A DNA stretch of 64,000 bases from Candidatus Thorarchaeota archaeon SMTZ1-45 (GTDB lineage: Archaea; Asgardarchaeota; Thorarchaeia; Thorarchaeales; Thorarchaeaceae). The stretch is from positions 1-64,000 of the forward strand of contig LRSL01000055.1 of the NCBI GenBank assembly GCA_001563335.1, written 5' to 3'. Below are positions 45,254 through 49,664 of this stretch, piece by piece (within the stretch, counting starts at the first letter, position 1; the number at the start of each line of letters is the position of its first letter). A program made the position numbers and the translations under genes. Below the pieces are notes generated by a model that did not search any database, was not told the DNA's origin, and saw only the letters and a program-made list of their open reading frames with translations.

Positions 45254-45625
45254 TTAGATCATTTTCGCAATCTTCTCTGCAGCACGTTTCATATCTAAGA
45301 ATATGAGACCTAGTTTGGCATTTGCAGTGGTGGAAACAGTCAGACAAGCGTTGATGCCAGCTGCCGTGACCAACAACCAGCCATCGACACCCTTGACATT
45401 GACTTGCTCAAGGTTGCCTTTCCCAAGCTCTATCGCCGCTCTCTCACCAAGACTCAGCATAGCAGCAGTCATTGCTGCGACCTTTGCCTCATCTACATCT
45501 GTGGGAAGAGCCGAAACAATTGGTAACCCTTCTACACTAACTATAGCACAGGCTTCAATCTCGGGAATGCTTCCTTGTAGTTCGTTCAGAACACCTTCGA
45601 GAGTATTTTCGCGGGTCTCTGCCAT
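45254..45625 (-). CDS. Roadblock/LC7 domain protein 1
   Basis: 123 residues, one Roadblock/LC7 domain: LEGVLNELQGSIPEIEACAIVSVEGLPIVSAL, the alanine-rich helix VAAMTAAMLSLGERAAIEL, then strand pairs EQVNVKGVDGWLLVTAAG and ACLTVSTTANAKLGLIF. Such proteins dimerise and serve as platforms or GAPs for small GTPases, as MglB does for MglA or Ragulator for Rag. It lies 13 bases after the GTPase gene on the same strand, which supports that pairing. Confidence 0.92.
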   Translation of the reverse strand: MAETRENTLEGVLNELQGSIPEIEACAIVSVEGLPIVSALPTDVDEAKVAAMTAAMLSLGERAAIELGKGNLEQVNVKGVDGWLLVTAAGINACLTVSTTANAKLGLIFLDMKRAAEKIAKMI

Positions 45626-45638
45626 TTGGTCTCACCTG

Positions 45639-46211
45639 TCATTTGTACATTCTTTTCAGGATGACTTCTCTTGCTATTGCTTGAAAAGCCCTCTTAACTC
45701 CTACGCCCTGTACAGCAATTGTTTCATAGATGGGTACATTTCCACCAAGACCAAGTAGGTCGAGCATTTCATCTCGTGACATCCTGTTTGGTAAGTCTCG
45801 CTTGTTTAGCATGACTACTATCGGAATTTCACGACCAAGAGCATCACCGAGGAACAACTTTAGCTCCTCGAAACTCTCTGTGTTCTCATCGCGCTGATCC
45901 GGTGAAGAGTCTGCAACAAATAGGATTCCATCAGTGCCCTGAAGCACCACCTTTCTCTGATGCCTGTGTCGTTTCTGTCCAGCCACTGTGAAGACATCGA
46001 AAAGCACTCGGCCACCCGCTGACATAGGGACATAGTCAAAGAACAGCGTACGATTGGTTTCATCCTCAATTGCAGTGAACTCTCCCTTCTGTAGCCCTTC
46101 TACTTTTCCATAAAGCCAGCGGAGCGCGGTTGTTTTGCCTCCTAGGGACGGGCCATAGAATACTAGTTTGAGATGAATTCGTCCCTTGTCGTCTTTTCGA
46201 ATTGTAAACAC
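45639..46211 (-). CDS. MglA-like small GTPase
   Basis: 190 residues. G1 FYGPSLGGKTT near 17, the MglA-type ETNRTLFFDYVP switch I region, G3 TVAGQKRHRHQR (TVAGQ instead of DxxGQ), G4 NKRD, and the G5 region IAVQGVGVKRAF. MglA GTPases belong to the Ras superfamily and are abundant in Asgard archaea. It is encoded between Roadblock genes and downstream of a Sec23/24-like gene, which suggests a switch with its regulators. No membrane anchor is evident. Confidence 0.92.
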   Translation of the reverse strand: MFTIRKDDKGRIHLKLVFYGPSLGGKTTALRWLYGKVEGLQKGEFTAIEDETNRTLFFDYVPMSAGGRVLFDVFTVAGQKRHRHQRKVVLQGTDGILFVADSSPDQRDENTESFEELKLFLGDALGREIPIVVMLNKRDLPNRMSRDEMLDLLGLGGNVPIYETIAVQGVGVKRAFQAIAREVILKRMYK

Positions 46212-46399: not shown

Positions 46400-46864
46400 T
46401 CACACACGCTCGAGCTCAGCCAGGGCAGATTTTAGGTCTTCTTCGTCAAGCTCGCTCTCTTTGGGAGATAATGGCTCCACTGCAAGGAACTTGTCAAGCT
46501 CATTAGCTAGTTGTACACCTTGTTTCTTCATCACAAGCCGGATCAGACCAATATTCACCTCTGCCTCAGAAACTACACAGAGTACACCTTTCCCACAAGC
46601 TGAGGCGAAAATTTTGCCCTCCGAGAACTCAGAAGTGACTATCTCAAGCTCCCCAATCTGCAGGTTCTTGCCCTGCTCCTCACTTGCACAGAAGACCGCA
46701 CTGGCAATGGCTCCAATTGAGTCGACGTCTACTGGGTAGTAGCTCAGCTTCGACACATTAGCTATTGTGAGGCCTGTCTTGTCGACTAGTATGACCTTTT
46801 TGATACCTTTGTCTTGGCGAATGATCTCTGTCAAAATTTTATCAAACGCCTTTGGGTCGCTCAT
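46400..46864 (-). CDS. Roadblock/LC7 domain protein 2
   Basis: 154 residues: a Roadblock domain (LTEIIRQDKGIKKVILVDKTGLTIANV, IGAIASAVFCASEEQGKNL, IGELEIVTSEFSEGKIFASACG, VNIGLIRLVMKK) with an acidic C-terminal extension of about 30 residues (EPLSPKESELDEEDLKSALA). The two cysteine-containing strands are unlike the other copies. The gene follows Roadblock 3 by 26 bases and probably shares its transcript. Confidence 0.9.
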   Translation of the reverse strand: MSDPKAFDKILTEIIRQDKGIKKVILVDKTGLTIANVSKLSYYPVDVDSIGAIASAVFCASEEQGKNLQIGELEIVTSEFSEGKIFASACGKGVLCVVSEAEVNIGLIRLVMKKQGVQLANELDKFLAVEPLSPKESELDEEDLKSALAELERV

Positions 46865-46890: not shown

Positions 46891-47193
46891 TTACTGATTG
46901 TTCTTAAGGACTACTAGGATGAGTCCTTCGTTCACTTCCGGTGCGATGTTAATCTGACCCTTGGTTGTATCCAAGGTCAGAAATGACAACGACCCCTCTC
47001 GAAGTTCTCGCACAGCATCTAGTGCTTTTCCAACGAGGGAGGTGATTATTGCAGCGACGTTCTCTGTAGTTTCCGGGTCTAGATCACTACTGAGTGGCAG
47101 ACCTTCCAAGGTGGTCACGACAACTCCTCGGACTCCTTCTTGTGACTTAAGTTTAGAAAGAATCCCTTGGAGCTTTTCTTGGCTAATCACCAT
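46891..47193 (-). CDS. Roadblock/LC7 domain protein 3
   Basis: 100 residues from the ATG at 47193, preceded by GCGAGGCC: LQGILSKLKSQEGVRGVVVTTLEGLPLSS, VAAIITSLVGKALDAVRELR and LSFLTLDTTKGQINIAPEVNEGLILVVL. This is a minimal Roadblock domain. The frame runs 27 codons further upstream but those residues do not fit. First gene of a pair with Roadblock 2. The 297 bases up to the Sec23/24-like gene hold a terminator-like hairpin and otherwise nothing recognised. Confidence 0.9.
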   Translation of the reverse strand: MVISQEKLQGILSKLKSQEGVRGVVVTTLEGLPLSSDLDPETTENVAAIITSLVGKALDAVRELREGSLSFLTLDTTKGQINIAPEVNEGLILVVLKNNQ

Positions 47194-47431
47194 ACAGAGG
47201 CCTCGCTGATTCAACTGTGCCTTAACATCTACGCCGCAGTTGACTATTTTAGACTTGTGGAGATATGTTACCAACCCACGTAGCTCATTTGCGCATTTGA
47301 AGAATATTTGGGGTTGTGTTACATCATCTGTGGGGATTTTATACCTTCATTCATAATAAAGAATTGATTCCAGTGTCGTTCCTGGAAGGACATGAATAAT
47401 GCCCAGTAAACAATGAACGATTGTGTTACAT

Positions 47432-47490: not shown

Positions 47491-49113
47491 TTAGGCTTCT
47501 TCATCTTTGTCAAAGAGTTTCTTTGAGCTTCTTTTCATCTGAGCAAGACTACCTGTGAAAGCTTCATCAGCAGCTCCTGATGGGCCTGCAGCTGGAGCCT
47601 CAGCCATCATCTCCTCCTGACGAGTAATCTCAGCCTCCTCGTTGTTCAAGACATTGTCAGTCTTATCCAACATTGCTTGAACGCTAGCAGGAGCAGACTT
47701 TGCCTTTGTCTTCAGAGCCTTTCTGAATGAGGCGATCCGCTCTCGCCCCTTCTCCCTATCACCACGGAAAGACTCTTCCCCAGCTTTCTGTGTCACAAAG
47801 GTTGCACCAACTGTTGGGTCGAGGGTTTCCATTATTTCTTCCTCTTTCTTGGTAACACGAAGCTTGGTTGTCACCACACGAACTCTTCGTGCACCCTCTT
47901 CATCAGTGTAAGATACTTGGACCTGTATTGGTACTTCAGGCGCCTTAATCTCCATTTCTGGTTCAACCTCAAAGTATAGCTCATGATCCTCACCAACAAC
48001 TCCAATCTTACTCTCGCCGTTCTTCTTCAACTGGTCAACAACAGCCCGGGAAACTCCAGAGGCATCTTTGACTTTCACACCTGGAGGTGTGACAAGCCGC
48101 ACCTCTACATCCCTACCTAGAAGAGATGCTCCAGCCAATTCAGAGAGACTGCGATCAAGCTCATTTGGAGTCACATAGTACATCTGACCACCAGTTGCTT
48201 CAGGTAAGAGCCCTAACGTCTGAAGCTCCATGCCAGCACCTGAGGCAATACCAACTACATCGACCGCGGTACCGAGTTCCATGAACATCTTTCCTAGGTC
48301 CTCGTAGTATTTACTCGCAGGAGTGACCTGATATCCCTCAAGAGCACCAATACCTTCGTTAGCAAGCCCATCCGTGAGAAGGACCACTCTTCCAACATTG
48401 CGATGCTTGGCAATGACATAGGCCATTCCAACTGCTGGGCCCAACGCAGTGCCACCTTGGTCACGGAGTGTTTGTACATGCTTTTTTAGCCGGTCCTTGT
48501 TCTTTCCCACACCTACTAATTTCACCTGGTCAAGAAGCTTCTTTGTAGACTCCATGATATCTTTAAGACTCGCAAAGGAGTCTCTCGGAAGTTCAACTGG
48601 ATTTCCGTTTTCCAGATTTCGAGCAACAACAGAGCTCTCAAACTCTATCAATCCAAACATGGTGTCTGGTGCGTTCGCGGCAAGACTGTCAATGGATGTG
48701 TTCAGACTGCGTTTAACTGCAGCTAGGTTTGCTCCAGCCATTGATCCTGAAACATCAATTAGCCCAAGAAATGAACGTCCGCCTACAGAGATTGTTTCCG
48801 TTTCGGTGGTTGTGTCTGGTGGCGGGTTAACAATGAAATCGGTGTCATCACCTGCTACTACAATCTCACCCTCAATGACATTTAGAGTTCCACAGAAAGG
48901 ACAAACAAAGTGTTTGCCCACCTTTGGATCGTCTTCTATTTGGTCTACACTAAGAAGGAAGCCATTACATTTGTGGCATGCAATGGGCTTTCCTACAATC
49001 TTTGTGGTTTCATGCGCAAGATGACCAAATTCTACACGCAGGACATATGGAATATCGCTCAGTACTTTTTTCGAAGCTGGAAAAGCCGCTGAGCTAGTTC
49101 TCAACATAGGCAT
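47491..49113 (-). CDS. Zinc-finger/von Willebrand A protein with Sec23/Sec24-like architecture
   Basis: 540 residues. Order: beta-rich N-terminus (1-40), zinc finger C46-x2-C49-x21-C71-x2-C74, vWA domain with the metal site DVSGSM (D120, S122, S124), GGTALGPA and LTDG; beta sandwich (about 330-420, VEVRLVTPPGVKVKDA, PIQVQVSYTDEEG); helical tail (to about 505) and a disordered alanine-rich end. Zinc finger, vWA trunk, beta sandwich, helices is the order in the COPII coat subunits Sec23 and Sec24, and Sec23/24-like proteins have been reported from Asgard archaea. The intact metal site differs from eukaryotic Sec23/24. A plain vWA protein is the alternative. TTGGAGGC precedes the ATG. Its neighbours are Roadblock proteins and an MglA-like GTPase. 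Confidence 0.75.
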   Translation of the reverse strand: MPMLRTSSAAFPASKKVLSDIPYVLRVEFGHLAHETTKIVGKPIACHKCNGFLLSVDQIEDDPKVGKHFVCPFCGTLNVIEGEIVVAGDDTDFIVNPPPDTTTETETISVGGRSFLGLIDVSGSMAGANLAAVKRSLNTSIDSLAANAPDTMFGLIEFESSVVARNLENGNPVELPRDSFASLKDIMESTKKLLDQVKLVGVGKNKDRLKKHVQTLRDQGGTALGPAVGMAYVIAKHRNVGRVVLLTDGLANEGIGALEGYQVTPASKYYEDLGKMFMELGTAVDVVGIASGAGMELQTLGLLPEATGGQMYYVTPNELDRSLSELAGASLLGRDVEVRLVTPPGVKVKDASGVSRAVVDQLKKNGESKIGVVGEDHELYFEVEPEMEIKAPEVPIQVQVSYTDEEGARRVRVVTTKLRVTKKEEEIMETLDPTVGATFVTQKAGEESFRGDREKGRERIASFRKALKTKAKSAPASVQAMLDKTDNVLNNEEAEITRQEEMMAEAPAAGPSGAADEAFTGSLAQMKRSSKKLFDKDEEA

Positions 49114-49298: not shown

Positions 49299-49664
49299 AT
49301 GATGGATAAAGCTAAGATTGAAAAAGTTGTATCAGAAACGATGGCTGCCAATGCAGATTTGGAAGGTATAGTCATATGTGATGCTAAAGGAAGTGTGCTC
49401 TTTGGTCACACAATTAGTGGAGGGACAAAGCATTCAGACATAGCAAACCTTGCGGTGAAGATAGCAGCTAACTCGTCCCAGCTCTCAGCTGGTCTAGACA
49501 AGGGGGGCCTGAAGGAAGTCAATATTGCATCAGATACCGGTTTCATTCTTATCCTCGGCGATGTTAAATTGGTACTAACGGGAGTCGCAGGAGAAGGAGC
49601 GAGAGAGTCACTAGGGCTTCTCAGAATGGCTCTGCGAAGAGCGCTTTTGCAAATGGTTACATAG
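49299..49664 (+). CDS. Roadblock/LC7 domain protein 4
   Basis: 121 residues: IEKVVSETMAANADLEGIVICDAKGSVLFGHT, the helix DIANLAVKIAANSSQLSAGL, and strands LKEVNIASDTGFILILG and KLVLTGVAGE, ending in a helix ESLGLLRMALRRALLQM. GGGAGGAATTTC precedes two adjacent ATG codons. It is divergent from the Sec23/24-like gene, and the SMC operon follows on the same strand 199 bases downstream. Confidence 0.9.
   Translation: MMDKAKIEKVVSETMAANADLEGIVICDAKGSVLFGHTISGGTKHSDIANLAVKIAANSSQLSAGLDKGGLKEVNIASDTGFILILGDVKLVLTGVAGEGARESLGLLRMALRRALLQMVT

Follow-up and report, generated by a model that had tools for sequence, protein, structure and literature searches.

Does the protein encoded at positions 47491-49113 of this window (the 64,000-nucleotide stretch of Thorarchaeota DNA that was analysed) belong with Sec23 and Sec24, the inner-coat subunits of COPII (the coat of vesicles that depart from the endoplasmic reticulum), or is it an ordinary vWA protein? 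And, if it is kin to the coat, what might it do with a metal site that the eukaryotic proteins have lost? The origin of the COPII coat is an open question in the study of eukaryote origins, and a single-copy Asgard homologue bears on it. Sec23/24 family proteins have already been reported in Thorarchaeota (PMC7997004; PMC9648965, which cites the 2017 Asgard genome paper), and COPII homologues have been mentioned for Asgard archaea (PMC10307638). The published proteins very probably represent the same gene family as the one discussed here; the passages that deal with them in PMC7997004 and PMC9648965 are silent on the metal site (MIDAS), on gene neighbourhood and on the wider Asgard distribution. 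The existence of Thorarchaeota homologues of Sec23/24 is thus known already; for their invariant MIDAS no earlier report, and for the MIDAS of Asgard Sec23/24 proteins no statement of any kind, was found in the open-licence papers searched.

Architecture and the reach of the homology

The gene occupies exactly the span just given, on the minus strand, in a genome of 3.54 Mb (119 contigs); its nearest named relatives are Candidatus Thorarchaeota MAGs, whose Sec23/24-like proteins are up to 94% identical to it. The highest 19-residue hydropathy mean is 1.49, so there is no clear membrane span. The first-pass annotation, which named no strand, had proposed a zinc finger (C46-x2-C49-x21-C71-x2-C74), a vWA domain with the motif DVSGSM and the domain order of Sec23/Sec24. 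All four cysteines stand at those positions, with the spacing x2, x21, x2; DVSGSM is found at residues 120-125, accompanied by the Thr (T222) and the Asp (D248) of the metal site; and Pfam together with the secondary structure of the predicted model yields the order strands, zinc finger, trunk, sandwich, helices (Table 1).

Table 1. Features of the Sec23/24-like gene and its neighbours (positions are those of the window; aa, residues of the 540-residue protein)
Feature	Position	Strand	Basis or remark
Sec23/24-like protein	47491..49113	-	540 aa, predicted cytosolic; ORF and Pfam
N-terminal strands, aa 1-42, ahead of zinc finger	48988..49113	-	predicted strands 4-6, 10-12, 23-28; pLDDT ~85
Sec23/24-type zinc finger, aa 43-80 (C46, C49, C71, C74)	48874..48987	-	PF04810 aligned at 43-80
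vWA / Sec23 trunk, aa 111-334	48112..48783	-	PF04811 at 115-315
MIDAS motif 1, DVSGSM (D120, S122, S124), aa 120-125	48739..48756	-	three residues constant in 49/49
MIDAS motif 2, TALGPA (T222)	48433..48450	-	ALGPA common to yeast and human Sec24
MIDAS motif 3, TDG (D248)	48367..48375	-	constant in 49/49; Asp missing from 4/4 eukaryotic sequences
Beta sandwich, aa 335-421	47851..48111	-	PF08033 at 335-421
Helical region, aa 424-505	47599..47844	-	helices in predicted model
C-terminal tail, aa 506-540, basic-x-Ser/Thr motif (KRSSKKLF)	47494..47598	-	motif count over family
Robl_a, Roadblock/LC7 gene, directly downstream	46891..47274	-	PF03259 2.5e-16
Robl_b, Roadblock/LC7 gene	46400..46864	-	PF03259 1.3e-9
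MglA-type small GTPase	45639..46211	-	MglA 3e-38, Arf 6.5e-12, SAR1b ~2e-7
Robl_c, Roadblock/LC7 gene	45254..45625	-	PF03259 4.8e-17
Robl_d, Roadblock/LAMTOR5-like, divergent	49299..49664	+	PF16672 7.7e-5 and PF03259 0.007, both below cut-off

The Pfam models for the Sec23 trunk (PF04811: 41 bits, cut-off 27) and for the Sec23 beta sandwich (PF08033, Sec23_BS: 39.8 bits, cut-off 33.5) pass; the zinc-finger model (PF04810) aligns in the right place at 17.4 bits, below its cut-off of 25. When the close alignment of 20 sequences described below (A1) is compared with Pfam at E<=0.01, trunk and sandwich are matched 20/20 and the zinc finger 12/20. PF04810 rises above its cut-off in 7 of 222 genomes of the phylum, and those matches fall inside the Sec23/24-like family. 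Pfam searches gave no match to a gelsolin domain (at E<=0.1) and none to an FHA domain.

Generic vWA Pfam models also match the protein, and the vWA subunits of TFIIH superpose on its model at Z 17 through the vWA part only. Could the likeness to Sec23/24 then come from the vWA core by itself, in an ordinary vWA protein that has acquired an unrelated zinc ribbon? This is very improbable: Sec23_BS is above its cut-off, and the alignment extends from the N-terminus into the helices. A profile built from 29 Asgard sequences of nine families and searched against the PDB matches yeast Sec24 at 70 bits (E 1.3e-18) over profile positions 44-474, that is, across zinc finger, trunk and sandwich; the match to human Sec24A (E 1.2e-15) begins at position 4. 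Other scores of the same profile are 37 bits for ArnA/ArnB (8s05), 28-29 for Sec23 and 23 for ITIH, a vWA protein.

The predicted fold points the same way. (A technical note: the AlphaFold model, made with 20 sequences, is a middling one, with mean pLDDT 69.3 and pTM 0.54, and residues 121-125 of the MIDAS lie under pLDDT 50; the completeness of the metal site is accordingly read from sequence and not from model geometry.) In Foldseek, ranks 1 to 46 are, all of them, Sec23/Sec24 chains or their Toxoplasma relatives. VIA-align places model residues 1-540 onto Sec24A 382-948 (Z 24.2, 488 residues, 4.1 A) and the model onto Sec23 13-635 (Z 22.5, 480 residues, 4.4 A); the corresponding figures for ArnB (8s05_B) are Z 19.5, 361 residues and 4.8 A, and proteins that share only the vWA domain reach Z ~17-18. 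The alignment ends at Sec23 residue 635 and Sec24A residue 948, ahead of the gelsolin domain, which in Sec23 we take to begin near residue 627.

Three Asgard ArnB-like vWA proteins that lack an N-terminal zinc finger (L134, L135 and L136, two of them near copies) provide the control. Against human and yeast Sec23 and Sec24 they score below 0 bits, whereas random three-member profiles of the Sec23/24-like family match in 8/8 cases (18-52 bits against Sec24, 4-27 against Sec23); the likeness to Sec23/24 is thus not that of any vWA protein. Matches to generic vWA proteins only, the outcome that the first-pass annotation had named as contrary to its claim, did not occur, and the ArnB-like controls showed no match to Sec23/24. 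A generic vWA or TerF-type identity is rejected, the Foldseek ranks, the span of the profile match and the ArnB-like control all being contrary to it. The homology proposed from the letters does continue past the vWA domain: a single alignment spans zinc finger, trunk and sandwich, in sequence and in fold, and the evidence supports the 540-residue protein as a Sec23/24 homologue beyond its vWA domain. It is named a Sec23/24 homologue, and neither Sec23 nor Sec24, because the gelsolin domain and a paralogue pair are both absent.

(ArnB-like vWA proteins of this kind, with no zinc finger at the N-terminus, are encoded in some Asgard genomes of families f20 and f7; the one from f7 has, in its place, a zinc ribbon at the C-terminus.)

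The metal site and what it may hold

Two sets of sequences define how constant the metal site is. Alignment A1 comprises 20 sequences; four of 23 loci were omitted from it, L047 because its match exceeds the gene in length and seems interrupted, and L051-L053 as partial. The second set comprises 30 sequences from ten Asgard families and shares with A1 only the protein encoded at 47491-49113, which makes 49 distinct sequences. D120, S122, S124, T222 and D248, and with them C46, C49, C71 and C74, are constant in 20/20, in 30/30 and hence in 49/49, so the motif is not a matter of chance, and the claim of a complete MIDAS holds throughout the family as sampled. The further claim, that the site is degenerate in eukaryotic Sec23/24, was borne out in all of the four sequences compared (human Sec23A, yeast Sec23, yeast Sec24 and human Sec24A): an equivalent of D120 is retained in 4/4, of S122 in the two Sec24s only, and of D248 in 0/4.

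The stretch at the MIDAS Thr also carries information. It reads TALGPA in 23 of the 29 sequences, TALGPG in 3, TSLGPA in 2 and TALGAA in 1, and ALGPA after the Thr is common to the Asgard family and to both yeast and human Sec24. Another candidate for a Sec24-specific mark, LANxGIG, is weakened by the finding that Asgard ArnB-like proteins also carry DGLANxGI; ALGPA is the better Sec24 mark.

Which state of the metal site came first? In ArnB the MIDAS is complete and has Na+ bound, as described in PMC12852372, and the Asgard ArnB-like proteins have a complete one by motif. Since the outgroup ArnB has the complete site, the ancestor probably had it too, and its loss is likely to be eukaryotic. 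A published parallel exists: a zinc site in Thorarchaeota TRAPPC3 is replaced in the mouse protein (PMC10933270). The first-pass annotation had gone further and suggested an ancestral, ligand-binding coat subunit. The ancestral part of that suggestion is reasonable, given the motifs of ArnB and of the Asgard ArnB-like proteins. In vWA proteins generally, the MIDAS takes up a metal and, with it, an acidic residue from the partner; by analogy, ligand binding at the Asgard site is likely. A vesicle coat is not claimed for the Asgard protein; it is a possibility, to be weighed below with the gene neighbourhood.

The reading that we prefer, with a probability of roughly 0.6, is that this is Sec23/Sec24 in its Asgard form, from before the eukaryotic duplication: a single, cytosolic, metal-dependent protein-binding scaffold without a gelsolin domain. 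What is established, namely homology, architecture, fold prediction, invariant metal-site residues, single copy and the Thorarchaeota neighbourhood, is its foundation. One cytosolic protein would constitute the body of Sec23/24 (strands, zinc finger, trunk, sandwich and helices); its MIDAS would probably hold a metal ion, which in turn could hold an acidic side chain of a binding partner in the manner of other vWA proteins, and the whole would act as a metal-dependent scaffold. In Thorarchaeota its partners may be the MglA-type GTPase and the roadblock proteins encoded beside it.

The main rival reading, an unlikely one in our estimate, would make the protein a signalling switch of the ArnA-ArnB type condensed into one chain, its zinc finger docked on sandwich and helical bundle, its C-terminus subject to control by phosphorylation, and its role not connected with membranes. 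ArnB has the same core and a complete MIDAS, and the zinc finger of ArnA docks on the sandwich and helical domain of ArnB (PMC12852372); the model aligns with ArnB at Z 19.5. In 25/29 family sequences the last 40 residues contain an Arg with a Ser/Thr no more than two residues after it, but this is a raw count of a short motif, without a background rate. The FHA domain, moreover, was not found by Pfam in the Sec23/24-like protein, and kinship in sequence is closer to Sec24 (70 bits) than to 8s05 (37 bits).

Copy number, distribution and a probable eukaryotic duplication

With the close profile, a match was found in 80 of 227 genomes of the phylum and not in the other 147; the Thorarchaeota family (f1) accounts for 41 of its 47 genomes, and the remaining 39 genomes with a match are spread over nine further families. 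A scan of genome contigs with the 540-residue protein as query gave loci labelled Thorarchaeota or Lokiarchaeota. Sec23_BS is found in 73/225 genomes and in 0/14 control genomes. Sec23_trunk is found in 51/392 genomes, every one inside the phylum, and the wider profile in 88/392, with full-length matches confined to the phylum; beyond it there are two matches, each limited to a short stretch of vWA. A second paralogue, such as a heterodimer of the Sec23/Sec24 type would call for, is absent, each of the 73 genomes positive for PF08033 having one match (73/73). The Sec23/24-like gene is single-copy and, among the genomes searched, Asgard-specific.

In a tree of 33 rows, which has no outgroup and has long branches (0.8-2.4), Sec23 and Sec24 fall on the same side of a branch with support 100/99. 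This puts the duplication on the eukaryotic side, provided that the root does not lie within the eukaryotic sequences, and it fits a Sec23/Sec24 duplication that would have followed the split from Asgard archaea. Nesting of eukaryotic Sec23/24 within a particular Asgard family was not seen in this long-branched tree without outgroup.

(Two loci call for separate mention. L052 (CP070658.1; G036:C1:931703-932242) is a second, shortened copy, aa 1-179, with Robl_d and SMC as neighbours, in a genome that also has a full copy elsewhere; it is either a real duplication or an assembly fault. The copy in the f28 genome, L121 (G205), groups with f11 in the tree, possibly through contamination or transfer.)

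Gene neighbours, the question of a coat, and known systems

Downstream of the gene, on the same strand, follow Robl_a, Robl_b, the GTPase, Robl_c and an undecaprenyl-diphosphate synthase-like gene; upstream and divergent are Robl_d, SMC, ScpA and ScpB. The set of Thorarchaeota-family neighbourhoods consists of 29 loci at 28 distinct places (L042 and L063 are the same). Robl_a is next downstream in 25/29: two of the exceptions are locus ends (L051, L053), one is the truncated second copy (L052) and one, L054, is a true absence. Robl_d and SMC are upstream in 27/29, missing at L046, which is at a contig edge, and at L054. The GTPase was considered as a Sar1-like neighbour, an identification that is rejected: it is MglA-type (3e-38, against ~2e-7 for SAR1b). 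Where found across Thorarchaeota-family loci it is 93-100% identical, above most neighbours, while the Sec23/24-like protein is 45-94% identical; since the GTPase is so much the more conserved, co-evolution of the two is not suggested. BLAST clustering of neighbours, used in the search for an operon common to Asgard archaea, found none outside the Thorarchaeota family, and the GTPase/roadblock arrangement is absent both at L054 and beside the gene in non-Thorarchaeota loci. The association of the gene with GTPase and roadblock proteins is real in Thorarchaeota; confined to that family, it may be simple linkage.

(In two of five f2 loci (L124, L129) the gene has a different cluster, of Ras-like small GTPases, immediately upstream; in 3/3 f22 loci (L114, L115, L132) such a cluster is four genes off.)

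Is the protein, then, a true if primitive COPII-like coat subunit, assembling on membranes under a small GTPase and aiding vesicle budding? A fold that matches both inner-coat subunits over nearly the whole length invites the thought. The genome that encodes the protein also has 24 Arf-family matches and a pair of TRAPP-family genes about 3 kb from each other (G000:C13:76870-80131); a GTPase gene is nearby in the Thorarchaeota family, and the other small-GTPase cluster adjoins or neighbours the gene in f2 and f22. Even so, we judge a coat role improbable. The GAP arginine with which Sec23 acts on Sar1 sits in the gelsolin domain, and that domain is absent; the neighbouring GTPase is MglA-type and not Sar1; BLAST clustering found no partner gene conserved across Asgard families; and Asgard genomes are so rich in small GTPases that GTPase neighbours may be there by chance. 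The pre-duplication scaffold is the reading with which we continue.

One can extend that reading, doubtful as the extension is. Both inner-coat subunits of COPII might descend from one Asgard protein whose metal-dependent adhesion site worked and which was switched by an MglA-type GTPase/roadblock module; a scaffold gated reversibly by metal would have become a constitutive coat heterodimer once the metal site was lost and the gelsolin domain acquired. The difference between complete and lost MIDAS is a single, sharp one with a measurable effect, and a homologue present in ten Asgard families with an invariant metal site is an ancestor-like protein to express, solve and mutate.

How does the Asgard protein stand to the systems already known? 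With ArnA-ArnB of Sulfolobus (8s05) it shares the vWA domain, the inserted sandwich, the helical bundle, a complete MIDAS (with Na+ in ArnB) and a zinc finger, which in ArnA docks on ArnB; PMC12852372 describes ArnAB as having the Sec23/24 core, and structurally related Heimdallarchaeota proteins as well. The zinc finger of the Arn system, however, is on a separate, FHA-carrying protein, whereas in the Asgard protein it is in the same chain, and the match is the weaker one. Sec23 has the same architecture and fold (Z 22.5), but the sequence match to it is weaker (28-29 bits), its MIDAS is lost except for D120, and its gelsolin domain is absent from the Asgard protein. Sec24 is the best match both in sequence and in fold, with the same order of strands, zinc finger, trunk, sandwich and helices, and with ALGPA; the Asgard protein differs from it in having no gelsolin domain and no paralogue partner, and in possessing a complete MIDAS, which makes it a good view of what a coat protein did before there was a coat.
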